This document shows, in pieces, positions 1 to 12,285 of a stretch of DNA of 12,285 nt. This stretch comes from Clostridiales bacterium (GTDB lineage: Bacteria > Bacillota > Clostridia > Oscillospirales > Oscillospiraceae). The notes beneath the pieces are model-generated. The model made no database searches. It was not told the origin of the DNA and saw only the letters and a program-made list of their open reading frames with translations. The number at the start of each line of letters is the position of its first letter. The first letter of the stretch is position 1. The position numbers and the translations under genes are program-made. The stretch is from contig JAJQHP010000205.1 in NCBI GenBank assembly GCA_021199695.1, forward strand, positions 1 through 12,285. Reading direction: 5' to 3'.

Positions 1-330
1 AGCGATGGCTCTCTGAGCTCGGGAGATACGGCCAACGATGACAATGACAGCACAGAGAGTACGGTTGACTCCGGCACAGACAGCTCTGCCGGGCAGACTG
101 CTACCACGCCGGTCTATGAGATCATTATCCCTCTCCACACATCGGATGAGGATGCGGGGACCACGCCCACTGTGTCTGTGACAGTCAACGGAGAGGTCAT
201 TCTGAATATGTCCTATTCCGCCGACGCCACCCAGGCGTCCACCGTATACAGTGGAGAGATCAGCGACATCATTGTCCTGATCAACGGGGTGCAGACCAAC
301 GTCTTTACCTGTGAGGACATCTCTGAGTGA
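1..330 (+). CDS. C-terminal end of a probable PASTA Ser/Thr protein kinase (PrkC-like), 5' truncated by the window
   Basis: An open frame enters from the left edge and ends at TGA 328-330, giving 109 visible residues. The first 35 or so are a flexible Ser/Asp/Thr/Gly-rich linker. The rest (from about TTPVYEIIIPLHTS) looks like a small beta-rich domain with alternating hydrophobic residues, ending VFTCEDISE. No catalytic or PASTA motif is visible. The identity is inferred: the stp-prkC-rsgA-thiN gene order is widespread in Firmicutes, and clostridial PrkC homologues often carry a Ser/Thr/Asp-rich linker and a further extracellular domain after their PASTA repeats. If correct, this part sits outside the membrane and the missing N-terminus holds the cytoplasmic kinase. 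The stop overlaps the rsgA start (GTGA), which suggests translational coupling. It could instead be another secreted or membrane protein. Confidence 0.6.
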   Translation, partial: SDGSLSSGDTANDDNDSTESTVDSGTDSSAGQTATTPVYEIIIPLHTSDEDAGTTPTVSVTVNGEVILNMSYSADATQASTVYSGEISDIIVLINGVQTNVFTCEDISE

Positions 331-1223
331 CGGGGGTTATTGTCCGCTCGCTCAGCGGCTTTTATGATGTGGACGTTCAGGGGCAGGTCCTCCGGTGTCG
401 CGGTCGTGGCAAGCTGCGCCACCAAAAGCAGAAGCCCCTGGTGGGGGACCGGGCGGAGATCACTCCGCTCAGCGAACAAGAGGGTGTGTTGGACGCCATT
501 CTTCCCCGGCGCAACGCCCTGGAACGTCCCGCTGTGGCCAATATGGATCAGATCTTGATCGTGGCCTCCGGAGCCATTCCGGTGACAGACCCGTTCCTGA
601 TCGACCGGATCACCGCCCTGGCTATCGCTGTGGACTGCCAGCCGGTCATCCTGTTCAACAAGTGGGACCTGGTCCCGGTCCCGGAGCTGGCGGAGATCTA
701 TGCAAATGCCGGTTTCACCGTCATTCCGTGCAGCGCCAGGACTGGTCAGGGAGTAGAGGAGATCCGGTCCTGCCTCCGGGACCGTATCTCTGTCTTTACC
801 GGCAATTCCGGCGTGGGAAAGTCCAGTCTGCTCAATGCCCTGGAGGGCAGTCTGGAATTGGCTACCGGAGAGGTCAGCGCCAAGCTGGGCCGCGGGAGGC
901 ACACCACCCGAATGGTAGAGCTGTTTCGGCTCCCGGGAAACGCTCTGGCAGCGGATACCCCCGGCTTTGCCGCCTTTGACCCTCAGACGCCGGAGCTGAT
1001 GGATGCCCAGGCTTTGGCAGGCTATTTCCCGGAATTTCGTCCCTACCTGTACGATTGTTCCTTCGCGGACTGCGCCCATGTCAAGGAGAAGGGATGCGGC
1101 CTGCTGGAGGCGATAAAGCAGGGCAAGGTATCCAAAAGCCGCCATGACAGCTATGTGCGGCTCTATCAACAGGCAAAGGAGTATCGGCCTTGGGAGAATC
1201 ACGGAAAAAACGGGCCGTCCTGA
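327..1223 (+). CDS. rsgA: Ribosome small-subunit maturation GTPase RsgA
   Basis: This 298-residue protein has the hallmark circularly permuted GTPase layout. An N-terminal OB-fold (about 1-68) is followed by G4 NKWD (111-114) and G5 CSAR (135-138), and only then G1 GNSGVGKSS (159-167), the G2 region RGRHTT (189-194) and G3 DTPG (210-213). A C-terminal zinc-binding knuckle follows (C244, C249, H251, C257). RsgA checks late 30S assembly and uses GTP hydrolysis, stimulated by the ribosome, to leave the mature subunit. Length matches the family. The start is GTG at 327, overlapping the upstream TGA by three bases; only a weak GAGG-type site lies upstream, so coupling to the previous gene is likely. 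The 3' end overlaps thiN by 34 bases. In Bacillus subtilis rpe lies between cpgA (rsgA) and thiN; here it is absent. Confidence 0.97.
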   Translation: MTGVIVRSLSGFYDVDVQGQVLRCRGRGKLRHQKQKPLVGDRAEITPLSEQEGVLDAILPRRNALERPAVANMDQILIVASGAIPVTDPFLIDRITALAIAVDCQPVILFNKWDLVPVPELAEIYANAGFTVIPCSARTGQGVEEIRSCLRDRISVFTGNSGVGKSSLLNALEGSLELATGEVSAKLGRGRHTTRMVELFRLPGNALAADTPGFAAFDPQTPELMDAQALAGYFPEFRPYLYDCSFADCAHVKEKGCGLLEAIKQGKVSKSRHDSYVRLYQQAKEYRPWENHGKNGPS

Positions 1224-1846
1224 TCGGCGCATCCTCCCATTCGCTCCCGCCGGGGCTGGCGGAGGAGATACATCCGGATGATTTTATCATCTGCGCTGAC
1301 GGCGGACGGGATGTGGCGGAGCAACTCGGGCTCCGACCGGACTGGTATGTGGGGGACAACGACTCGGGCGGACGGCCGGAGGGGCTGCCTGCCACTCTTC
1401 TGCCATCGGAGAAGGATGTTTCCGATATGGAGATGGCCGTCGATCAGGCCCTCCGGCTGGGTTACCGGGAGCTGCTGCTCCTGGGCTGCACCGGCGGCAG
1501 AGGAGACCATCACCTGGCGAACCTGGGCCTTCTGGAGCAGATCGACCAGCGAGGCGGCCACGGCATTTTGATGGACAGGACAAACGAGGTGCGTTTCCTG
1601 GGGCCCGGCAGCTACCGGATGGAAAACCGCCCCAAATACCACTACCTGGGGCTGATCCCATTGGACGCGACAGTCACCGGCGTCACGATTACCGGCGTCC
1701 GCTACCCGTTGAACCAATTTACCCTCTGCCGTGGCTCCACCCGGTCGGTCAGCAACGAGATACTGCCCGGGGCCACAGCTGAAATCACCGTTCAAACCGG
1801 TCACGTCTATCTGATTCGGTCACAGCCGGAACCCATGGACCCCTGA
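1190..1846 (+). CDS. thiN: Thiamine pyrophosphokinase
   Basis: The 218-residue product transfers pyrophosphate from ATP to thiamine, making thiamine diphosphate. Family motifs appear in order: ADGG (36-39), GDNDS (55-59), SEKDVSDMEMA (73-83), the nucleotide-binding GCTGGRGDHHLANLGLL (99-115), and C-terminal thiamine-site strands ending in SVSNE (186-190). One oddity is GDNDS: the family usually has Phe or another hydrophobic residue between the two aspartates, but both metal-binding aspartates are kept. The start is TTG at 1190, chosen because AAAGGAG (1175-1181) lies 8 bases upstream and the Met-Gly-Glu start leads directly into the first strand (RAVLIGA). The gene overlaps rsgA by 34 bases and is probably co-transcribed with it. 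Assignment is strong; the exact start is a little less certain. Confidence 0.94.
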   Translation: MGESRKKRAVLIGASSHSLPPGLAEEIHPDDFIICADGGRDVAEQLGLRPDWYVGDNDSGGRPEGLPATLLPSEKDVSDMEMAVDQALRLGYRELLLLGCTGGRGDHHLANLGLLEQIDQRGGHGILMDRTNEVRFLGPGSYRMENRPKYHYLGLIPLDATVTGVTITGVRYPLNQFTLCRGSTRSVSNEILPGATAEITVQTGHVYLIRSQPEPMDP

Positions 1847-4800: not shown

Positions 4801-6234
4801 ACCACCGGCACCACCTACCTTTACACGGTACGGGGTTGCACGACCCTGAATGGCTCCACAGTCCTGGGCGCGCTTGCATCCAACAGTACGTTCTGCTATC
4901 TGGACGCCCCCACATTGAAGAGCGTAAAGGTTGCGACCTCGGGGCTGACAGTGACCTGGGACAGCGTGGCGGGCGCATCCAGCTATTACGTCTATCGCAA
5001 GGTCAGCGGCGGCTCCTGGTCCAAAATGGCCACTGTCAGCAGCGGGACCACATGGACAGATACCTCGGTGAAAAGCGGGACTACCTATCTTTACACGGTC
5101 CGGGCGGTCAACAACGGGAACATGAGCTGGTATAACGCCAGCGGCATCTCCGGCGTGTGGCTGTCTGCGCCTACGATCTCTTCTGTGACCACCGCATCCA
5201 CCGGCGTGCGCATAAAATGGAGCAGTGTGGATGGGGCCTCCAGCTATCGTGTCTACCGCAAGATATCCGGCGGCAGCTGGAAGCTGTTGGCAACCACCAC
5301 CAAGACCCAGTATGACGATACCGATACGCTGACCACCGGCACCACCTACCTTTACACGGTACGGGGTTGCACGACCCTGAATGGCTCCACAGTCCTGGGC
5401 GCGCTTGCATCCAACAGTACGTTCTGCTATCTGGACGCCCCCACATTGAAGAGCGTAAAGGTTGCGACCTCGGGGCTGACAGTGACCTGGGACAGCGTGG
5501 CGGGCGCATCCAGCTATTACGTCTATCGCAAGGTCAGCGGCGGCTCCTGGTCCAAAATGGCCACTGTCAGCAGCGGGACCACATGGACAGATACCTCGGT
5601 GAAAAGCGGGACTACCTATCTTTACACGGTCCGGGCGGTCAACAACGGGAACATGAGCTGGTATAACGCCAGCGGCATCTCCGGTCTTTGGATAGAGACT
5701 CCCGAACTGACTTCCGTCGCAACAGTGTCCACCGGAGTTGAAATTACCTGGAGCGCCGTTGAAAACGCTACCGGATACCGGGTCTTTCGCAAGACGGAAG
5801 GGGGAAGCTGGGTATTCCTGAAAGCGGTCACCGATACCAGCTATACGGATTCCGGCCTCACCGCCTACGATACCAACTACTATTATACGGTGCGGGCCTA
5901 CGTTACTGTCAGTGGAACGACCTATTACGGCGGCTACGACACGACTGGAATCCTGCTCCACTATCTCGCAGTGCCACAGCTCAATGACGCAGATAGTACC
6001 AGCTCTGGCATTACCATTAGCTGGATCAAGGTCAGCGGAGCCACCTCCTATCTGGTTTACCGCAGAACGAGCGACGCCGATTGGACGCAGATCGCCACCC
6101 TGGACAGCGTCGCTACCGATTATACCGATACCACCGGCGTCTCCGGGATGACCTACTATTATACTGTCCGGGCAAAGAGCGACAACGGCCTGAGCTGGTA
6201 CAACGAGACGGGCGTCTCTGCCACTTGCCAGTAA
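1870..6234 (+). CDS. Secreted GH25 lysozyme-family protein with twelve FN3-like repeats
   Basis: A 1454-residue exported protein. Residues 1-23 are a signal peptide (MRRM, hydrophobic core, probable cleavage after AFA). Residues 24 to about 165 are a highly acidic Ala/Glu/Thr/Ser/Asp-rich linker. Residues about 176-385 form a glycoside hydrolase family 25 domain: GVDVSKWNG with D184, the DYE motif with D276 and E278 as expected active-site acids, and the closing WQYSDSG...GVDVDYRYE. GH25 enzymes cut the MurNAc-GlcNAc bond of peptidoglycan. From 385 to 1454 there are twelve repeats of about 82-93 residues with the pattern W...A..Y.VYRK..G.W..IATV...YTDT....GT.Y.YTVRA, typical of FN3-like modules in Firmicute surface proteins. 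Repeats begin near 385, 478, 571, 660, 748, 840, 927, 1017, 1104, 1194, 1281 and 1372. No LPXTG, SLH, choline-binding or transmembrane C-terminus is visible, so wall retention would depend on the repeats or linker. Role could be wall remodelling, adhesion, or attack on other bacteria; the sequence does not decide. Confidence 0.92.
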   Translation: MRRMIALLLTAVLCLQLCVPAFATETAEETTDVVAADEELTSETEENTDAVTDEAEDTSADAADETEEETASASEETAASAETDVAEAASEADETETAAETEVAAASEEAEGEASEAAEEDTSDSTEEDVTLYGGFEADYNDPEFLQLLESGAFEESEDDGISTAATYSHNSQFNGYTITKGVDVSKWNGTINWSKVKASGISFVIIRCGYRGTGDGTLYKDSMFETNVKGALAAGLEVGVYVYSQAITTAEAKAEANLAIQMCAGYDVTLPLVLDYEYLTPTTGRLANASLTKTQRTNICLAFCDTVDAAGYGAMVYANRSMLEDDTYGQQIADAGYEVWLAQWRSSTTYSGTYTYWQYSDSGSVSGISQPTSGVDVDYRYELPSPTITLTYCAATGVRLAWSEVSLADSYVVYRRASGATAWTKLGTVSSDDDLTWLDKTAVEGTTYEYVVRACDGSILSPYQRTGTSVDYDPEFSLSSATQTNSGVKLTWDASTEYDSYQIYRRVGNSGSWTKVETISDTSKTSYTDTAQLTSGAVYSYTIAGISDGTEDDYDPYGLQVTWLDMPELVSAASYKTGMKVTWKAVSGADGYRVFRKESGSWKCIATITSGSTVTYYDSAASASGTTYTYTVRAYQGSAYGPYSSSGISGTRVTAPTLVSVAQSGSSMKVQWTAVSDATKYYVYRKSSGTGWTKVGTVSASATSYSDSTASSGTVYTYTVRAVVSGNTSWYDETGVSGLYLGTVKLNYASRTDAGITVSWSTVTGAAKYAVYRKVGTSGSWTKIATVTKNSYTETESLSTTEKYYYTVRAVATYNGKTVMGGYQTAGILLSNLTIPALTGVTSSTGGLTVKWEAVTGASGYYIYRKVSGGSWSKVATVSSGTSWTDSTAKAGTVYTYTVRATDGETMSWYNTSGISGVWLSAPTISSVTTASTGVRIKWSSVDGASSYRVYRKISGGSWKLLATTTKTQYDDTDTLTTGTTYLYTVRGCTTLNGSTVLGALASNSTFCYLDAPTLKSVKVATSGLTVTWDSVAGASSYYVYRKVSGGSWSKMATVSSGTTWTDTSVKSGTTYLYTVRAVNNGNMSWYNASGISGVWLSAPTISSVTTASTGVRIKWSSVDGASSYRVYRKISGGSWKLLATTTKTQYDDTDTLTTGTTYLYTVRGCTTLNGSTVLGALASNSTFCYLDAPTLKSVKVATSGLTVTWDSVAGASSYYVYRKVSGGSWSKMATVSSGTTWTDTSVKSGTTYLYTVRAVNNGNMSWYNASGISGLWIETPELTSVATVSTGVEITWSAVENATGYRVFRKTEGGSWVFLKAVTDTSYTDSGLTAYDTNYYYTVRAYVTVSGTTYYGGYDTTGILLHYLAVPQLNDADSTSSGITISWIKVSGATSYLVYRRTSDADWTQIATLDSVATDYTDTTGVSGMTYYYTVRAKSDNGLSWYNETGVSATCQ
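4684..5153 (+). repeat. First copy of a 470-bp exact direct repeat (FN3 units 7-8)
   Basis: By base-by-base reading, 4684-5153 is identical to 5215-5684, an offset of 531 bp (177 codons, two FN3 units). Just upstream, 4621-4683 matches 5152-5214 except for five third-position changes (at 4641, 4662, 4665, 4680 and 4683), all synonymous. The encoded unit pair is thus identical at protein level. Confidence 0.93.
5215..5684 (+). repeat. Second copy of the 470-bp exact direct repeat (FN3 units 9-10)
   Basis: Identical to 4684-5153. Identity stops at 5684, where GGC GTG TGG of the first copy is replaced by GGT CTT TGG and the sequence runs into unit 11. A repeat of this length can confuse short-read assembly, so the copy number should be treated with care. 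Confidence 0.93.
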
Positions 6235-6267
6235 ACCGCAGACTCCCGGGAAAAATCCATCTGACAC

Positions 6268-6324
6268 AAACCGCCGCCTCTCTGCATATCCTGTAATAAC
6301 AGGGTATCCAGAGGGGCGGTTTTT
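6268..6324 (+). terminator. Long hairpin intrinsic terminator after the GH25/FN3 gene
   Basis: AAACCGCC at 6268-6275 pairs with GGCGGTTT at 6315-6322, which continues into a T-run ending at 6324. The stem continues inward through CTCTG/CAGAG and ATATCCTGT/ACAGGGTAT (one G-U pair), closing on an AATA loop. It lies 34 bases after the stop codon at 6232-6234 and only about 43 bases before the spoVM-like ATG, so it probably separates the vegetative operon from the sporulation genes. Confidence 0.85.
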
Positions 6325-6366
6325 CTGCCTGTCCCGGTGATACTGCGCAGGGAAGGGGGCACGGTC

Positions 6367-6447
6367 ATGAAGATCATCATTTTGCGGTCGCCAAAATTTC
6401 TCTCCGGTCTGCTCAAGCTGGTGTTTCATATGGATTCCAGGGAATGA
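6367..6447 (+). CDS. spoVM: SpoVM-like 26-residue spore coat anchor peptide
   Basis: ATG 6367 to TGA 6445-6447 encodes exactly 26 residues, the length of Bacillus subtilis SpoVM. It begins MKIIILRSPKFL, continues SGLLKLVF, and ends HMDSRE. Aligned without gaps to the B. subtilis peptide as I remember it, Met1, Lys2, Pro9, Lys10, Phe11, Leu12 and Gly14 are identical, and positions 6, 7, 15, 16, 17 (Lys for Arg), 19, 25 and 26 are conservative. Pro9 is the residue known to be critical for SpoVM function. SpoVM is an amphipathic helix that lies in the forespore outer membrane, recognises its convex curvature and anchors SpoIVA. AGGGAAGGGGG (6349-6359) ends 7 bases before the ATG, a good ribosome-binding site. 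Context agrees: in B. subtilis spoVM follows thiN, and here the SpoIVA gene lies downstream. No clear promoter is visible between the terminator and this gene. It is divergent, so the call rests on length, motif and context together. Confidence 0.85.
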   Translation: MKIIILRSPKFLSGLLKLVFHMDSRE

Positions 6448-6470
6448 AGGACGCCGCTGGCGCATACTCT
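6442..6470 (+). promoter_or_regulatory. Candidate sigma-E promoter for sipL-spoIVA
   Basis: CATACTCT at 6463-6470 resembles the sigma-E -10 element (CATACAAT-like). GAATGAA at 6442-6448 is a weaker match to the -35 element (GAATATT-like), with a 14-base gap that fits sigma-E spacing. Transcription would begin near 6476, about 45 bases before sipL. The sipL and spoIVA genes are sigma-E-dependent in studied spore formers. The -35 overlaps the end of the spoVM-like gene. This is a pattern match by eye only. Confidence 0.4.
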
Positions 6471-6519
6471 CTTTCAGAACCGTGTCCGGCCAGGCCGGGC
6501 GCAAAGGAGAGGATGCCTT

Positions 6520-8040
6520 TTGGAACTTGAATGGAACGGAACCAGTGTGGACTATCTTGAGCTGATACAGGACAGCGGGTACAGCAGGGAGGAGACGCTG
6601 GAGATGATTGTCCCGGACGCCTGTCCGGATATTGTGCAGGTGGTAGACACCTGGGGATTCTGCTGCCTGGCCCGTCGGGAGGTGACAGATACCGGCGCTC
6701 TGGTGACGGGGCGGGTGAGGGTCACGATCCTGTACATTCCGGAGGGGGGCGGCGGACTGCAACAGCTGGAGACGGAGCTCCCCTTCCAGCACCTGAGCGA
6801 ATGTACCCAGGCGGACGGCAGTACCCGACTGATGGCCAGAGCCTGGGTGTCCTCAGCGGAGACCCGGATATTGAACCCCAGAAAGGTCCTGATCCGCACA
6901 GATATTTGCGAGAGAGTGCAGCTTTACCGGCCACAGACCCTTCGGACCTGCGGCGGACTGGAGCCCGACGACGCTCTGGGGATTCAAACCAGGCAGCGGC
7001 AGGAGCAGACCGACCTGGTGACCCAGACGGCGGAAAAGGTCTTTGTGCTGGAGGAGGAGCTGACCCTGTCCGGCGGTCGGGCAGTCTCGGCCGTGCCGCT
7101 GCGGCTCCGGCCGGAAGCATCCTGGGTCGAGGCCAGACTGATCGGCTCCAGGCTGGTGCTGAAGGGGACCGTCCGGGTCCAGGCGCTTTGGCAGGAGGAG
7201 GGCGGAGGGCTGGCCTGCAACAGCTTCGAGCTTCCCTTTTCCCAGATGCTGGACGCCGCCGGAGTGGGGGAGGGCACCCAGTACCGGGTATGGCTCCAGC
7301 TCCAGAGCTGGCAGACGGGTCCCCTCTCCGGTGATGGGCGTACTCTGCCCATTACCCTGGAGCTGTGTGCCCAGGCGGTCTTTGGGGAGCGGATCCCCCT
7401 GGAGCTGATGACCGACGCATACAGCGTCTATTATCCCACAGAGCTGCATACAGAGCAGTGGACCGTCTGTCGGCAGAGCCAGGAGGAATCCCGGCAGCCT
7501 GTCCGGGAGTTTGTCCCCTGTGAGCGGAGCATTCAGACCGTGCTGGACTGCCACGGAGAGCTGGGACTGGCCCAGATCGCCAGGGAGGACAGCCAGTATA
7601 CCGTGACCGTCCCTGTCTCCGCCACCACCCTCTGCCTGGATGAGGAGGGGACCCCGTTTTCCGTTTTGCGCTCCTTTTCTGTCTCTCTCCAGCCGTCCTG
7701 TTTGCCGGAGCAGCGGCTCCGATGCGGCTGCACGCTGCTCCAGATGGAGGCTCTGCCTGCCGCAGCCGGTGTGGAACTGCGGGGTTCGATCGCGCTGTAT
7801 CTCCAGACCGTACAGGAGACGGAGATACCCGGATTGACAGGGCTGGAGGTGGACAGAGAGCACCCACACGAGCACGCCGGACAGCCCTCTGTGGTGCTGC
7901 GCCGTCCCGCCCCGTCAGAGTCCCTGTGGGACATCGCCAAGCGCTGCTCCACCACCTGTCAGGAGATCTGTGCGGCCAACGGTCTGGCGGAGGATCAGCC
8001 GCTTGGGGAGCAGATGCTGCTCATCCCCCGGAAGCGGTAA
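6520..8040 (+). CDS. sipL: SipL-type spore coat morphogenetic protein (DUF3794/SPOCS domains plus LysM)
   Basis: A 506-residue protein with SPOCS (DUF3794) modules and a C-terminal LysM domain. The first module spans about 25-145 (VPDACPDIVQVVDTWG, GRVRVTILYIPEGG, then RTDICERVQLYRP), the second about 165-310 (FVLEEELTL, LKGTVRVQALWQEEGG, ELMTDAYSVYYP), the third about 325-450 (ERSIQTVLDCHGEL, ELRGSIALYLQT). LysM is at about 455-504 (SESLWDIAKRC ... LLIPRK). This is the architecture of Clostridioides difficile SipL, the functional counterpart of SpoVID, whose LysM domain binds SpoIVA and joins the coat to the forespore. Start: TTG 6520, supported by AAAGGAGAGG (6503-6512) 7 bases upstream; the nearby ATG 6513 is in another frame and meets a stop within six codons. 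Only 12 bases separate the stop from spoIVA, so the two are surely co-transcribed. Confidence 0.9.
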   Translation: MELEWNGTSVDYLELIQDSGYSREETLEMIVPDACPDIVQVVDTWGFCCLARREVTDTGALVTGRVRVTILYIPEGGGGLQQLETELPFQHLSECTQADGSTRLMARAWVSSAETRILNPRKVLIRTDICERVQLYRPQTLRTCGGLEPDDALGIQTRQRQEQTDLVTQTAEKVFVLEEELTLSGGRAVSAVPLRLRPEASWVEARLIGSRLVLKGTVRVQALWQEEGGGLACNSFELPFSQMLDAAGVGEGTQYRVWLQLQSWQTGPLSGDGRTLPITLELCAQAVFGERIPLELMTDAYSVYYPTELHTEQWTVCRQSQEESRQPVREFVPCERSIQTVLDCHGELGLAQIAREDSQYTVTVPVSATTLCLDEEGTPFSVLRSFSVSLQPSCLPEQRLRCGCTLLQMEALPAAAGVELRGSIALYLQTVQETEIPGLTGLEVDREHPHEHAGQPSVVLRRPAPSESLWDIAKRCSTTCQEICAANGLAEDQPLGEQMLLIPRKR

Positions 8041-8052
8041 GGGAGGGGTCAG

Positions 8053-9531
8053 ATGGAACACGTCAAGCTCTATGAGGAGATCGCCCAGCGGACGGAAGGG
8101 GACATCTATATCGGCGTCGTAGGGCCGGTCCGGACGGGAAAGTCCACCTTCATCAAACGTTTTATGGAGACGCTGGTGATCCCGAACATCGAAAATGTCT
8201 ATCGCCGGGAGCGGGCCAGAGATGAGCTGCCCCAGTCCGGCAGCGGCCGCACCATTATGACCGCCGAGCCAAAGTTCGTCCCGGAGGAGGCCGCTCAGGT
8301 GGAGCTGGAGGGGGGCGTCCGGTTCTCCGTCCGGCTGATCGACTCGGTGGGCTATCTGGTGGCCGGTGCCGTGGGTCAGACGGAGGACGGCAGCCCGCGA
8401 ATGGTCACCACGCCCTGGTTCGACCACGAGGTTTCCATGGCGGAGGCCGCCGAGCTGGGGACCAGAAAGGTCATCGCCGAGCACTCCGCCATCGGCATCG
8501 TCGTGACCACCGACGGCACCGTCACCGAAATCCCCCGGGAGGACTATCTGGAGGCGGAGGAGCGGGTCATTCAGGAGCTGAAGGCGCTGAACAAGCCCTT
8601 CCTGGTGCTGCTCAACTCCCAGGAGCCGGGTTCCGACCGGGCGAGGGCCATCGCTTCGGACCTCTCCTCCCGATATGAGGTCAGCTGTCTGCCGGTGAAC
8701 TGCCTGGAGCTTCGGGAGCAGGATGTGACCCAGATCATCCAGTCCGTCCTCTATGAGTTCCCGTTGCAGGAGCTGGAGTTGTTCCTGCCCTCCTGGGTAG
8801 ACGCCCTGCCCTACGACCACCCCATCAAGTCTGGGCTTTACCAGTCCATTCAAACCGTGGGCGGGCAGATCAGCCGTATCCGGCAGGTGCGGGACAGCCT
8901 GGCCCAGCTGGGGGCCTGTGAGAGCGTCAGCCGGTGCGAGATGACCGGGGTAGACCTGGGCAGGGGAGTGGTCCAGGCCACCGTAGAGGTCCCGAGAGGG
9001 CTGTTCTACGAGACGCTGAGCCAGCAGTCCGGCTTTGCCGTGGGCGACGACGGCGATCTGATCCAGCTCCTGACCCAGCTTGCCACGGTCAAACGGGAGT
9101 ATGACAAGGTGAGCGATGCGCTCCGGGAGGTCCGGGAGAACGGCTACGGCATCGTTGTCCCATCCATGGATGAGCTGACCCTGGAGGAGCCGGAGATCAT
9201 GCGGCAGGGAGGACGTTATGGCGTCCGTCTCAAGGCCAGTGCCCCCTCCATCCATATGCTGAGGGCGGACATCGAGACGGTCCTCTCGCCTATCGTGGGC
9301 AGCGAGAAGCAGAGCGAGGAGATGATCCACTATCTGCTCCAGGAGTTTGAGGGGGACACCCAAAAAATCTGGGAGTCCAACATTTTCGGGAAGTCCTTCC
9401 ACGAGCTGGTCAACGAAGACCTCCAGGGGAAGCTGACCCGGATGCCAGAGGACGCCCGGGTCAAGCTCCGGGAGACTCTGGAGCGCATCATCAACGAGGG
9501 GACCGGAGGGCTGATCTGCATTATCCTCTGA
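8053..9531 (+). CDS. spoIVA: Stage IV sporulation protein A, coat basement-layer ATPase
   Basis: The product is 492 residues, the same length as Bacillus subtilis SpoIVA. The N-terminal domain is a TRAFAC GTPase-like fold that uses ATP: Walker A GPVRTGKS (24-31, with K30), a Thr-containing segment SGSGRTIMTAEP (62-73), and a Walker-B-like LIDSVGYL (95-102, D97). The middle and C-terminal regions are conserved through to the hydrophobic end GGLICIIL, the part that contacts SpoVM and the membrane in B. subtilis. SpoIVA hydrolyses ATP to polymerise irreversibly on the mother-cell face of the forespore membrane, making the platform for the coat and supporting cortex formation. GGAGG (8042-8046) precedes ATG 8053 by 6 bases. 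It follows sipL by 12 bases and ends at a strong terminator. Confidence 0.97.
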   Translation: MEHVKLYEEIAQRTEGDIYIGVVGPVRTGKSTFIKRFMETLVIPNIENVYRRERARDELPQSGSGRTIMTAEPKFVPEEAAQVELEGGVRFSVRLIDSVGYLVAGAVGQTEDGSPRMVTTPWFDHEVSMAEAAELGTRKVIAEHSAIGIVVTTDGTVTEIPREDYLEAEERVIQELKALNKPFLVLLNSQEPGSDRARAIASDLSSRYEVSCLPVNCLELREQDVTQIIQSVLYEFPLQELELFLPSWVDALPYDHPIKSGLYQSIQTVGGQISRIRQVRDSLAQLGACESVSRCEMTGVDLGRGVVQATVEVPRGLFYETLSQQSGFAVGDDGDLIQLLTQLATVKREYDKVSDALREVRENGYGIVVPSMDELTLEEPEIMRQGGRYGVRLKASAPSIHMLRADIETVLSPIVGSEKQSEEMIHYLLQEFEGDTQKIWESNIFGKSFHELVNEDLQGKLTRMPEDARVKLRETLERIINEGTGGLICIIL

Positions 9532-9607: not shown

Positions 9608-10573
9608 TCATTTCTTTCCCTTGATATGGGCCAGGGGGTTCATCTCCGCGGCGTCAGCCAGATTTTCGTTGCTGACGTGGGTATAGATTTGGGTCGTGTT
9701 CAGGTGGTCGTGGCCCAAAACCTCTTGCAGGGTGCGGACATCCACGCCGTTCTGGAGCATCAGCGTCGCGGCGGTATGACGGAGCTTGTGGGCGGAATAG
9801 AGGCTGGGGTCCAGCCCGGCGGCGGCCAGGGCGTTTTTGATCATCAAATGAACAGCACTTTTAGAAATGCGCTTTCTCTGATTGCTGACAAACAAAGCCT
9901 CCGGATCGATCAGGGTCATACCGTTTCTGACCACCAAATAGTTCTCCAAAGCGTCCACACAGCTGTCATTTAAGTACAAAATCCGTTCTTTATTGCCTTT
10001 GCCCAGCACACGGACGGTGTTGCCCTGGATGCTGGACAGATTCAGGTTCACCAGCTCGGAAATACGCAGACCGCAGTTCAGGAAGAACACCAGAATACAG
10101 TAATCCCGCTCCTGATTTTTGCCCTGAACCGAGTTGAGCAGCCGGACGGATTCCTCCAGGGTCAGGTATCTGGGCAGCGATTTCCGGATCTTCGGCGAGT
10201 CCAGGTCCTGGATGGGATTTTCCTCCAGCTTGTGGGTCTTGACGGTCAGGTATTTGAACAGCGAACGGATGGCGGAGATCTTTCTGGCCCGGGACGCCTC
10301 GTTGAGACCTTTTTCCCGGTTTAAGTAGGACAGATAGCTGTAGACGTCGCTCAGGGAAATTTGGCGGATAAAGTCGATGTCCACGTCGTCGATGGGGATC
10401 TCGTTTTCCGGCATATCCCGTGGGACGACCCGCTTGAGCCGCTTCATATAACGGAAAAAGCTCCGCAGATCAAGACAGTATTCGTCCACGGTGAGATTGG
10501 AATGGCCTTTTACCGTCTCATGATAGGATAAAAAGTCGCACAGCAAGGGCGACGCAAATTCTCGGTAGTCCAT
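9608..10573 (-). CDS. Xer-type tyrosine recombinase
   Basis: A 321-residue site-specific recombinase. The N-terminal SAM-like DNA-binding domain spans about 5-115 (LLCDFLSYHETVKGHS, TVDEYCLDLRSFFRYM). The C-terminal catalytic domain holds the full set: R170 (NCGLRISEL), K192 (VLGKGNKER), H262 and R265 (HKLRH), H288 (LGHDH), and nucleophile Y297 (IYTHV). Length and layout fit XerC/XerD, which resolve chromosome dimers, but I cannot tell that role from a related recombinase. I chose ATG 10573 because the family N-terminus (MDYREFASP) begins there. Its only nearby ribosome-binding site, GGGAG, is 16 bases away, so TTG 10579 two codons upstream (spacing 10) is a real alternative. A longer frame upstream runs through the leader and the -10 element and is unlikely. 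No phage or integron genes flank it. Confidence 0.92.
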   Translation of the reverse strand: MDYREFASPLLCDFLSYHETVKGHSNLTVDEYCLDLRSFFRYMKRLKRVVPRDMPENEIPIDDVDIDFIRQISLSDVYSYLSYLNREKGLNEASRARKISAIRSLFKYLTVKTHKLEENPIQDLDSPKIRKSLPRYLTLEESVRLLNSVQGKNQERDYCILVFFLNCGLRISELVNLNLSSIQGNTVRVLGKGNKERILYLNDSCVDALENYLVVRNGMTLIDPEALFVSNQRKRISKSAVHLMIKNALAAAGLDPSLYSAHKLRHTAATLMLQNGVDVRTLQEVLGHDHLNTTQIYTHVSNENLADAAEMNPLAHIKGKK

Positions 10574-10624
10574 AGTCAAAATCAGGGGTCTCCCGGCCTG
10601 GTGAGAGCGGTTTTCACCTCCCTC

Positions 10625-10656
10625 AACCTGAACAAAATTTTTATTTTGTTCAGGTT
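10625..10656. repeat. Perfect 14-bp inverted repeat in the recombinase leader
   Basis: AACCTGAACAAAAT (10625-10638), then TTTT, then the exact reverse complement ATTTTGTTCAGGTT (10643-10656). It lies 52 bases upstream of the recombinase ATG. In the - strand transcript it forms a stable hairpin just before a GGGAGG sequence. As DNA it could be an operator or a recombinase-binding site. It contains GAAC...GTTC, but the spacing is far too wide for a LexA box. Confidence 0.9.
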
Positions 10657-10667
10657 TGTATTTTGGG

Positions 10668-10697
10668 AAAAAGCGGCCTCTCGCTTCGCAGCCGCTT
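10668..10697 (-). terminator. Terminator-like hairpin inside the recombinase leader (possible attenuator)
   Basis: On the - strand AAGCGGC (10697 to 10691) pairs with GCCGCTT (10677 to 10671) across a 13-base loop, and the 3' arm runs into a T-run (AAAAA on the + strand at 10668-10672). It lies downstream of the sigma-A promoter and upstream of the coding region, so it could stop transcripts early. The stem is short (7 bp), so strength is uncertain. Confidence 0.5.
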
Positions 10698-10744
10698 CTC
10701 TCAGGCGGAGTCCCCTGCCTCCTGTTCCTTGTTTGATTAGGTCC

Positions 10745-10773
10745 AGCATACCACAACGGCGGGTTTCTGTCAA
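10745..10773 (-). promoter_or_regulatory. Consensus sigma-A promoter for the recombinase gene
   Basis: On the - strand TTGACA (10773 to 10768), a spacer of exactly 17 bases, and TATGCT (10750 to 10745). The -35 is perfect and the -10 has five of six consensus bases (TATAAT). Transcription should begin near 10738, leaving a leader of about 165 nt before ATG 10573. It lies in the gap after the small gene at 10811-11086, so the recombinase does not depend only on read-through from radA. Confidence 0.8.
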
Positions 10774-11107: not shown

Positions 11108-12285
11108 TTACGCCAGCACCGCCAGCGCCTCCCGGATGTTGCGCACCGGGATGAGCTGCATCCCCGGGATGTCGATGTCCTTGATCCCTCTGGCGGGGAC
11201 CAGGCACTTGTGGAAGCCCAGACGGTGAATTTCCGACAGCCGCTGGCCCAGGACGCTGACGCTGCGTATCTCCCCCGTCAGGCCCACCTCTCCCACGGCG
11301 GCCAGGTCGTCCGGCACCGGGCGGTCCCGGAAGCTGGAGGCCAGGGCCAGCACCGCCGCGAGATCCGCCGCAGGCTCGTTCAGGTTCAGGCCCGCCACCA
11401 CGTTGATATAGGCGTCACAGCCGCCGATGCGGAGGCCGCCCCGCTTTTCCAGCACGGCCAGGAGCAGCATGGAGCGGTTGTAGTCGATACCGTTGCTGGT
11501 GCGCCGGGGGACGGCGAAGCTGCTGGGGGCCACCAGGGCCTGGACCTCCGCCAGAACAGGGCGCACCCCCTCCATGACGCAGGTGACGCAGCTCCCCGGT
11601 GTTCCGGCAGGTCGGCCGGATAGTAGCATCTCCGAGGGGTTGGGTACCTCCCGGAGGCCGGAGTCCAGCATCTCAAAGACGCCGATCTCGTCCGTGGCCC
11701 CGAACCGGTTCTTGGTGGCCCGGAGGATGCGGTAGACCAGATTCTGCTCTCCCTCAAAGGACAGCACGCAGTCCACGATGTGCTCTAGCACCTTGGGCCC
11801 GGCGATGGAGCCCTCCTTGTTGATGTGGCCGATGACAAAGACGGTGATGCCGTTGCCCTTGGCCAGCTCCATCAGGCTCATGGCACAGGCCTTCACCTGG
11901 GCCACGCTGCCGGGCAGAGACTCCGACCCGTCCTGATACATAGTCTGGATGGAGTCCACCACCAGGATATCCGGCTTTACCTCGTCTACGCTGCTGAGGA
12001 CCTGGTTCAGGTTGGTCTCCGCCAGCAGGTACATCCCCTCCCCCGCGACGCCCAGCCGTTGGGCCCGGAGCTTGATCTGCCGGGCGGACTCCTCTCCAGA
12101 GACGTACAGCACCCGATAGGAGGCGGAGAGGGTGTCGCAGATCTGGAGCATCAGGGTGGATTTCCCGATGCCGGGGCTGCCGCCCACCAGGACGAAGGAG
12201 CCCTTGACGGCGCCGCCCCCCAGCACCCGGTCCAGCTCCCCCATGCCGGTGCAGAAGCGGATCTCCTCCCCCATCTCTACCTGGG
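11108..12285 (-). CDS. radA: DNA repair protein RadA (Sms), N-terminus outside the window
   Basis: The reading frame enters from the right edge and stops at TAA (11110 to 11108), giving about 391 visible residues. Starting at the in-frame Met at 12274, motifs are EIRFCTGMGELDRVLGGG (4-21), Walker A GGSPGIGKST (31-40), SGEES (59-63), Walker B ILVVDS (103-108), and the RadA signature KNRFG (188-192). A Lon-protease-like C-terminal domain follows (about 240 onward, with GLNLNEPAADLAAVLAL and GEVGLTGEIRSV). RadA is a RecA-related hexameric helicase that promotes branch migration of recombination intermediates. Full-length RadA starts with a four-cysteine zinc finger about 60 residues upstream; the frame stays open to the window edge, so the Met at 12274 is internal and the true start lies beyond. 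Confidence 0.96.
   Translation of the reverse strand, partial: QVEMGEEIRFCTGMGELDRVLGGGAVKGSFVLVGGSPGIGKSTLMLQICDTLSASYRVLYVSGEESARQIKLRAQRLGVAGEGMYLLAETNLNQVLSSVDEVKPDILVVDSIQTMYQDGSESLPGSVAQVKACAMSLMELAKGNGITVFVIGHINKEGSIAGPKVLEHIVDCVLSFEGEQNLVYRILRATKNRFGATDEIGVFEMLDSGLREVPNPSEMLLSGRPAGTPGSCVTCVMEGVRPVLAEVQALVAPSSFAVPRRTSNGIDYNRSMLLLAVLEKRGGLRIGGCDAYINVVAGLNLNEPAADLAAVLALASSFRDRPVPDDLAAVGEVGLTGEIRSVSVLGQRLSEIHRLGFHKCLVPARGIKDIDIPGMQLIPVRNIREALAVLA

Follow-up and report, generated by a model that had tools for sequence, protein, structure and literature searches.

SpoVM of Bacillus subtilis recruits SpoIVA to the forespore membrane, where the mother cell lays down the base layer of the spore coat (PMC3533761), and its gene is described as switched on by sigma-E (PMC517825). 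According to a study of C. difficile, Pro9 kinks the SpoVM helix and is needed for the recognition of positively curved membrane, and it is the sole fully conserved residue of the SpoVM alignment presented there, in which key residues are otherwise conserved (PMC5607322). The same study describes a C. difficile SpoVM that binds SpoIVA and is under sigma-E control, the loss of which lowers resistance only about 3-fold, and reports that sipL is absent from Bacilli (PMC5607322). Galperin et al. (2012) found that annotation had seldom recognised spoVM, listed 70 newly identified copies, and left the question of whether distant versions hide in clostridial genomes (PMC3533761).

The stretch of DNA analysed here, referred to as the window, comprises 12,285 nucleotides from an uncultured member of the Oscillospiraceae. 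It contains a short ORF upstream of genes for SipL and SpoIVA, the latter being the binding partner of SpoVM (Table 1). Translation of the ORF on the forward strand, from ATG to TGA, gives MKIIILRSPKFLSGLLKLVFHMDSRE, a peptide of 26 residues with P-K-F-L at positions 9-12, Gly14 and Lys17. The initial annotation had proposed a SpoVM of this length, with a ribosome-binding site 7 bases upstream, the P-K-F-L motif from position 9, Gly14 and a basic residue at 17, all of which was borne out by the translation and the sequence. Its placement of the gene downstream of thiN was correct in direction, but the two genes do not adjoin, as a large glycosyl hydrolase 25 gene lies between them.

Table 1. 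Features of the window in order of position; + denotes the forward strand.
Feature	Position	Strand	Basis or remark
rsgA	327-1223		Same locus, 5' of thiN
thiN	1190-1846	+	TIGR01378 over cut-off; Pfam TPK domains
Glycosyl hydrolase 25 gene with repeats, 1,454 codons	1870-6234	+	Pfam Glyco_hydro_25 over cut-off
GACACA, possible -35-like element	6263-6268	+	16 bases 5' of the -10-like element
Terminator-like hairpin	6273-6320	+	-36 kcal/mol, z -7.0; T run 6321-6324; ends the upstream gene
CATATCCT, putative -10-like element in 5' arm of hairpin	6285-6292	+	Coordinates; similar motif in 43/68 loci
GGGAAGGGGG, Shine-Dalgarno-like	6350-6359	+	Read from the sequence; ends 7 bases 5' of the spoVM ATG
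spoVM	6367-6447	+	26 codons, then TGA; translation, NF033436 over cut-off, conserved frame, pN/pS 0.14
CATACTCT, -10-like element, likely sipL promoter	6463-6470	+	Coordinates
sipL, SpoIVA coat partner	6520-8040	+	TTG start; Pfam SipL SPOCS and C-terminal LysM, both over cut-off
spoIVA, coat ATPase	8053-9531	+	TIGR02836 698 bits (cut-off 459.9); three Pfam SpoIVA domains
Tyrosine recombinase gene	9608-10756	opposite	Followed by a short ORF
Gene which we take to be radA	11108-12274	opposite	Pfam KaiC-type ATPase and Lon-like parts

The NCBIfam equivalog model NF033436 (SpoVM_broad) matched the window peptide at 31.5 bits (E 1.3e-7), a margin of 0.5 bits over its cut-off of 31, and Pfam PF08183 did not match the peptide. 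The genome to which the window belongs, available as 1.50 Mb of sequence in 270 contigs with a completeness of about 68%, was also searched. In a six-frame scan with NF033436, spoVM was the sole match at E <= 10, with a score in that scan of 29.1 bits, below the cut-off; PF08183 gave two matches only, both elsewhere and both below cut-off. A family profile (A1), which has the window peptide among its members, gave spoVM 52.1 bits and the next place 10.6, so that no better SpoVM was found in the available 68% or so of this genome. A separate family model was built from 56 peptides of other loci, with the window peptide and the five closest to it excluded. It assigned the window peptide 43.1 bits, with 39.2 for the lowest SpoVM listed; of the 42,523 short ORFs in the window and 80 related loci, none that is not a SpoVM scored above 12.4. 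Scores over the loci were bimodal, with SpoVM peptides at 36.7-57.7 and other short ORFs at 11.5 or less. Sequence searches of the PDB found no SpoVM, and the one weak match of the SpoVM profile was a fish piscidin (E 0.31).

The B. subtilis SpoVM was compared with the sequence given in PMC12626167. It and the window peptide both have 26 residues and share Met1, Lys2, Pro9, Lys10, Phe11, Leu12 and Gly14, but these represent the only identities (7/26); the window peptide has Lys for Arg at position 17, and at positions 6 and 15 Ile is replaced by Leu, and unlike in B. subtilis its gene adjoins sipL. Under the 56-peptide model the B. subtilis SpoVM scored only 12.1 bits, on a level with the top unrelated ORF (12.4), so that kinship with the B. 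subtilis peptide is supported by the broader NCBI model, the gene position and the partners, and not by the family profile. The likeness to C. difficile SpoVM, as described in the literature, lies in the partners SipL and SpoIVA.

Computation identifies the ORF as a SpoVM under purifying selection in a fixed place upstream of sipL. The proposal of a divergent clostridial SpoVM is supported by NF033436, the conserved frame, Pro9 and the sipL-spoIVA neighbours, and the best explanation, in which we have high confidence, is that the ORF is the spoVM gene of an uncultured Oscillospiraceae relative, with a coat role assigned by homology. With it, uncultured bacteria gain a clear SpoVM that extends an already known family; its surroundings hold more interest than the peptide.

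For comparison, the window SpoIVA was scanned against one genome per species, and the best 80 of the 156 relatives found were taken as loci; these are close relatives rather than a random sample, the nearest having 98% SpoIVA identity. A SpoVM ORF was recovered at 67 of the 80 loci and in the window, and in all 68 cases the next gene downstream is sipL, with a median gap of 79 bases (range 49-363; 72 in the window). Eleven of the 13 genomes without a SpoVM ORF at the SpoIVA locus encode one elsewhere, located in each case (11/11) within 300 bases upstream of sipL. In total, SpoVM is present in 78 of the 80 best-matching relatives and just 5' of sipL in 78/78; in the remaining two genomes (L080 and L093) no SpoVM was detected by profile or by reading the interval upstream of sipL. 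The same arrangement, with sipL downstream of spoVM, was found in 29/29 further family loci fetched with NF033436.

All 62 distinct peptides have Met1, Pro9 and Leu16; position 10 is Lys or Arg in 62/62, Phe20 is present in 61, Gly14 in 55, Lys2 in 46 and Phe11 in 17. Among the five 26-codon sequences of close relatives (10 pairs) pS was 0.45 and pN 0.061, giving a pN/pS of 0.14, as expected under purifying selection on the peptide; in the wider set (67 sequences, 22 codons) the ratio was 0.45, with pN 0.30 and a pS of 0.67 that is near saturation. Conservation of the frame (78/80 relatives) and of Pro9 (62/62 peptides) and purifying selection, for all of which the initial annotation had proposed checks, were thus found. 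Conservation of length was not: the peptides have 22-30 residues, most often 23 (24/62), and therefore the match to the 26 residues of B. subtilis is probably a coincidence. Lys2 is replaced by Gly in nine distinct peptides (L070, L075, L077, L079, L081, L082, L090, L097 and L101), by Asn in four, and by Ser, Ile and Arg in one each. For B. subtilis SpoVM, the K2A substitution is described as blocking cortex formation (PMC5607322).

The initial annotation had also pointed to a hydrophobic N-terminus and to the replacement of Arg17 by Lys as possible grounds for altered curvature sensing and membrane insertion. Both traits are real, but both are ordinary for the family. The mean Kyte-Doolittle value of residues 3-8 is 2.00 in the window and 0.87 in B. 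subtilis, whereas the family median is 2.07 (range 1.12-2.50) and 40 of the 62 peptides, including the window, reach at least the window value; position 17 is Lys in 31/62 and Arg in 29/62. As family traits they do not by themselves predict altered curvature sensing, and nothing points to a change in this species particularly. The helical moment of residues 9-22, calculated from sequence only, is 0.49 in the window, 0.43 in B. subtilis and 0.60 in the family median.

The wider gene order was explored in 245 genomes of the order, 103 of which had a NF033436 match at E <= 0.001, and 27 new loci were fetched with about 1.5 kb on each side of spoVM. In 18/27, rsgA and/or thiN lie upstream of spoVM, which is the neighbourhood of the B. 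subtilis gene also, suggesting that the rsgA-thiN-spoVM order is old. A sipL gene was detected in 5/27 and none in the stretch in 22/27, with queries from the window's family that distant sipL genes can escape; it was adjacent in L149, about 1 kb downstream in L138 and L142 and divergent in L154, while L140 belongs to the window's own family. The joining of spoVM to sipL thus looks mainly like a trait of this family, in which spoVM, sipL and often spoIVA form one cluster, so that the coat base layer could be studied as a unit. A literature search, judged by titles and with subscription journals mostly outside its scope, found no paper on the spoVM-sipL cluster.

In 200 genomes of the family, SpoIVA was found in 169. 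NF033436 was over its cut-off in 17/200 and matched 114/200 at E <= 1, some of these by chance, whereas profile A1 matched 94/200 at E <= 0.1, 80 of them at E <= 2e-4, including the window's genome. The claim that ordinary gene calling would miss this gene holds in part: an NCBI model exists, but the window peptide exceeds its cut-off by half a bit and few genomes of the family pass it. About half of the SpoIVA-bearing genomes, some of them incomplete, have no recognisable SpoVM, indicating that SpoVM is not indispensable to the locus. Twenty such genomes were opened around spoIVA. A detectable sipL was found beside spoIVA in five, with no SpoVM upstream of sipL in any of them (0/5); for the remaining 15, the sequence fetched around spoIVA showed no sipL. 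Some absences reflect divergence, since in G070, a genome that A1 did not pick up, the expected place is occupied by a diverged SpoVM form, MKVCVIKLPAFLGNFISRFLKK.

The present case fits the picture drawn by Galperin et al. The place upstream of sipL, together with a family-tuned profile, provides a direct way to find distant clostridial SpoVMs or to show their absence, and the genomes with SipL and SpoIVA and no recognisable SpoVM are natural tests of SpoVM dispensability in some clostridia.

Homology with the B. subtilis and C. difficile peptides predicts that the mother cell makes the window peptide and that it enters the outer forespore membrane as an amphipathic helix with a kink at Pro9. 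It would favour the convex face of that membrane and help SipL-bound SpoIVA to encase the forespore in the base layer of the coat. We infer membrane insertion, curvature preference, SpoIVA binding and timing only by analogy with those systems. As in C. difficile, SpoVM may be helpful here rather than essential, with partial redundancy possible. An alternative goes further, holding that spoVM is kept by descent with little or no role, SipL and SpoIVA encasing the forespore largely without it. The C. difficile phenotype of only about 3-fold (PMC5607322) speaks for this, as do the family genomes with SpoIVA but no recognisable SpoVM, which are about half of those with SpoIVA and include five with sipL beside spoIVA. 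A gene of so little use is at odds with the pN/pS of 0.14 in close relatives and with its retention in 78 of the 80 best-matching ones, and we regard this alternative as unlikely, preferring a SpoVM with a part in coat formation.

The region between the glycosyl hydrolase gene and spoVM contains the terminator-like hairpin, which was also present in five related loci (L033-L037, with a variant motif in L034). Its 5' arm includes CATATCCT, which we liken to the -10 element recognised by mother-cell sigma factors, with sigma-E and sigma-K types taken together. In many loci a CACA-like element lies upstream of the -10-like motif at a distance similar to that of GACACA in the window, and several loci whose motif is outside any hairpin have GTGTCA at that distance instead. 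Further -10-like elements within hairpins were seen in L038 (6091-6142) and L096 (6055-6106), the equivalent in the window being 6263-6324.

The motif CATAYNNT was found within 120 bases upstream of spoVM in 19/68 loci, with a mean of 1.6 and a highest count of 6 in 200 resampled runs. After this first look the motif was widened to C[AG]TAY[AC]NT and the distance to 450 bases, and it was then found in 54/68 loci; in 43/68 a terminator-like hairpin, at -15 kcal/mol or better, holds it in its loop or 5' arm. As a control, 154 of 625 occurrences of the widened motif elsewhere were sampled, of which 12 fell in a hairpin of this kind. Given the widening of the motif, the relatedness of the loci and the looseness of the hairpin test, the contrast is suggestive rather than a probability. 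A narrower control, in which the motif was in 9/55 hairpins within 130 bases upstream of spoVM and in 21/3,454 elsewhere, was superseded, as at least seven of the 21 are also upstream of spoVM, further off. A longer -35 spacing, with ATA before CATAY, was found upstream of spoVM in 0/68 loci. A scan of 6150-6600 for sigma-70-type promoters and for terminators gave one promoter-like site on the opposite strand and one terminator-like site inside spoVM, counts near chance expectation, and missed the 6273-6320 hairpin; Rfam at gathering thresholds had no match over the window.

These observations suggest that the terminator hairpin between the glycosyl hydrolase gene and spoVM likely carries a mother-cell promoter in its 5' arm. 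Transcription of spoVM would then probably begin inside the hairpin. RNA reading through from the upstream gene would fold the hairpin and stop, whereas RNA begun a few bases 3' of the motif would lack the 5' arm, so that the terminator could not form and, as we infer, transcription would continue. Folded read-through RNA could also hide a ribosome site in the 3' arm. The B. subtilis sigG gene reportedly has a hairpin that forms only in read-through RNA and acts on translation; the proposed spoVM hairpin would likewise form only in such RNA, but it looks like a terminator too and holds a putative -10 element. No precedent for a promoter inside a terminator was found among the papers listed in a literature search.

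The interval between spoVM and sipL has a CATAYNNT of its own in 53/68 loci (resampled mean 2.0, highest 6), and ATA at 13-17 bases ahead of a CATAY in 42/68 (resampled mean 0.9), suggesting that sipL is probably promoted separately; the corresponding element in the window is CATACTCT. This bears on the possibility that the short ORF has no part in the coat and serves to tune the translation of sipL, as a leader peptide or upstream ORF, which its position 72 bases upstream of sipL, and within 363 bases in 68/68 loci, would allow. Such a leader would not explain why the amino-acid sequence is conserved beyond the frame alone, why the curated SpoVM model NF033436 matches, or why most of the 27 order-level loci have spoVM apart from sipL (22/27 with none in the stretch), and with a separate promoter-like element between the two genes in 53/68 loci we consider it very improbable. 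Less probable still, and already disfavoured, is an unrelated amphipathic peptide with a convergent likeness to SpoVM: short amphipathic helices converge readily, the one weak PDB match being to piscidin, and B. subtilis SpoVM is undistinguished under the family model, but the ORF scores are bimodal and other families of the order keep spoVM near rsgA and/or thiN (18/27 loci).

In other loci with spoVM, a further gene is found upstream. A filter for hydrophobicity and position detected a hydrophobic ORF ending near the spoVM start in 41/68 loci, which we sorted into 28 of a first kind, 12 of a second kind and one that looks spurious (L082). ORFs of the first kind often begin right after the T run of the hairpin, with a GGAGG in the 3' arm as the likely ribosome site. 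Those of the second kind (L056, L064, L065, L068, L069, L072, L073, L083, L085, L086, L099 and L109) have stop codons that overlap the spoVM start by 1-4 bases, which suggests translational coupling. Examples of unannotated membrane ORFs of 47-49 residues, placed just 5' of spoVM or, where SpoVM is lacking, 5' of sipL, are L040:6151-6297, L044:6157-6303, L049:68-211, L107:6159-6302 and L171:4764-4910.

A profile of ten members of the small membrane protein (A2) matched 117 of the 200 family genomes at E <= 0.01, of which 112 could be compared with 88 of the 94 genomes matched by A1. Both proteins were found in 51 genomes, with the small ORF directly upstream of spoVM in 47; in the other four the matches are on separate contigs, and two of these matches, which fall within long reading frames, are probably due to chance. 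SpoVM without the small protein was found in 37 genomes and the small protein without a listed SpoVM in 61, which is an upper figure because at least two of these (G070 and G147) have a weak NF033436 match beside the small ORF. Thirty A2 loci were fetched and the small ORF was recovered in 29, with sipL downstream in 29/29; seven (G100, G055, G186, G033, G161, G139 and G084) have no SpoVM between the small ORF and sipL. All five sipL-spoIVA loci found above without SpoVM have a small membrane ORF upstream: L158 (G033), L164 (G055), L165 (G061), L169 (G092) and L171 (G100).

A protein search found 868 relatives of the small membrane protein, and the 120 of these that were listed have no Pfam domain and, where they bear a name at all, only 'hypothetical protein' or 'uncharacterized membrane protein'; Pfam and NCBIfam searches with four members, one of the second kind, gave nothing over cut-off. 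SpoVQ of C. difficile was considered and set aside by its description: it is described as confined to Peptostreptococcaceae, with a soluble part after an N-terminal membrane segment (PMC8265636), whereas the small proteins are only 47-49 residues long and are found in the family of the window. The window's genome, about 68% complete, gave no match to the small protein, which is present in three genomes of the same genus; the close group of the window has no gene for the small ORF and keeps the putative hairpin promoter. The position of the gene suggests a protein of the outer forespore membrane that could be a partner of SpoVM or SipL, and where it is kept in genomes without recognisable SpoVM it is a concrete candidate for study.

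A joint reading, offered tentatively and as somewhat short of probable, is that in this family spoVM belongs to a compact mother-cell unit whose -10 element in the 5' arm of the terminator acts as a read-through switch, and that about half of the spoVM-bearing genomes add a small membrane protein which may share or take over the anchoring of SipL and SpoIVA.

The glycosyl hydrolase 25 gene upstream of the hairpin contains a near-exact internal duplication (4836-5135 and 5367-5666 of the window), recognised from overlapping ORFs 531 bases apart with identical translations.
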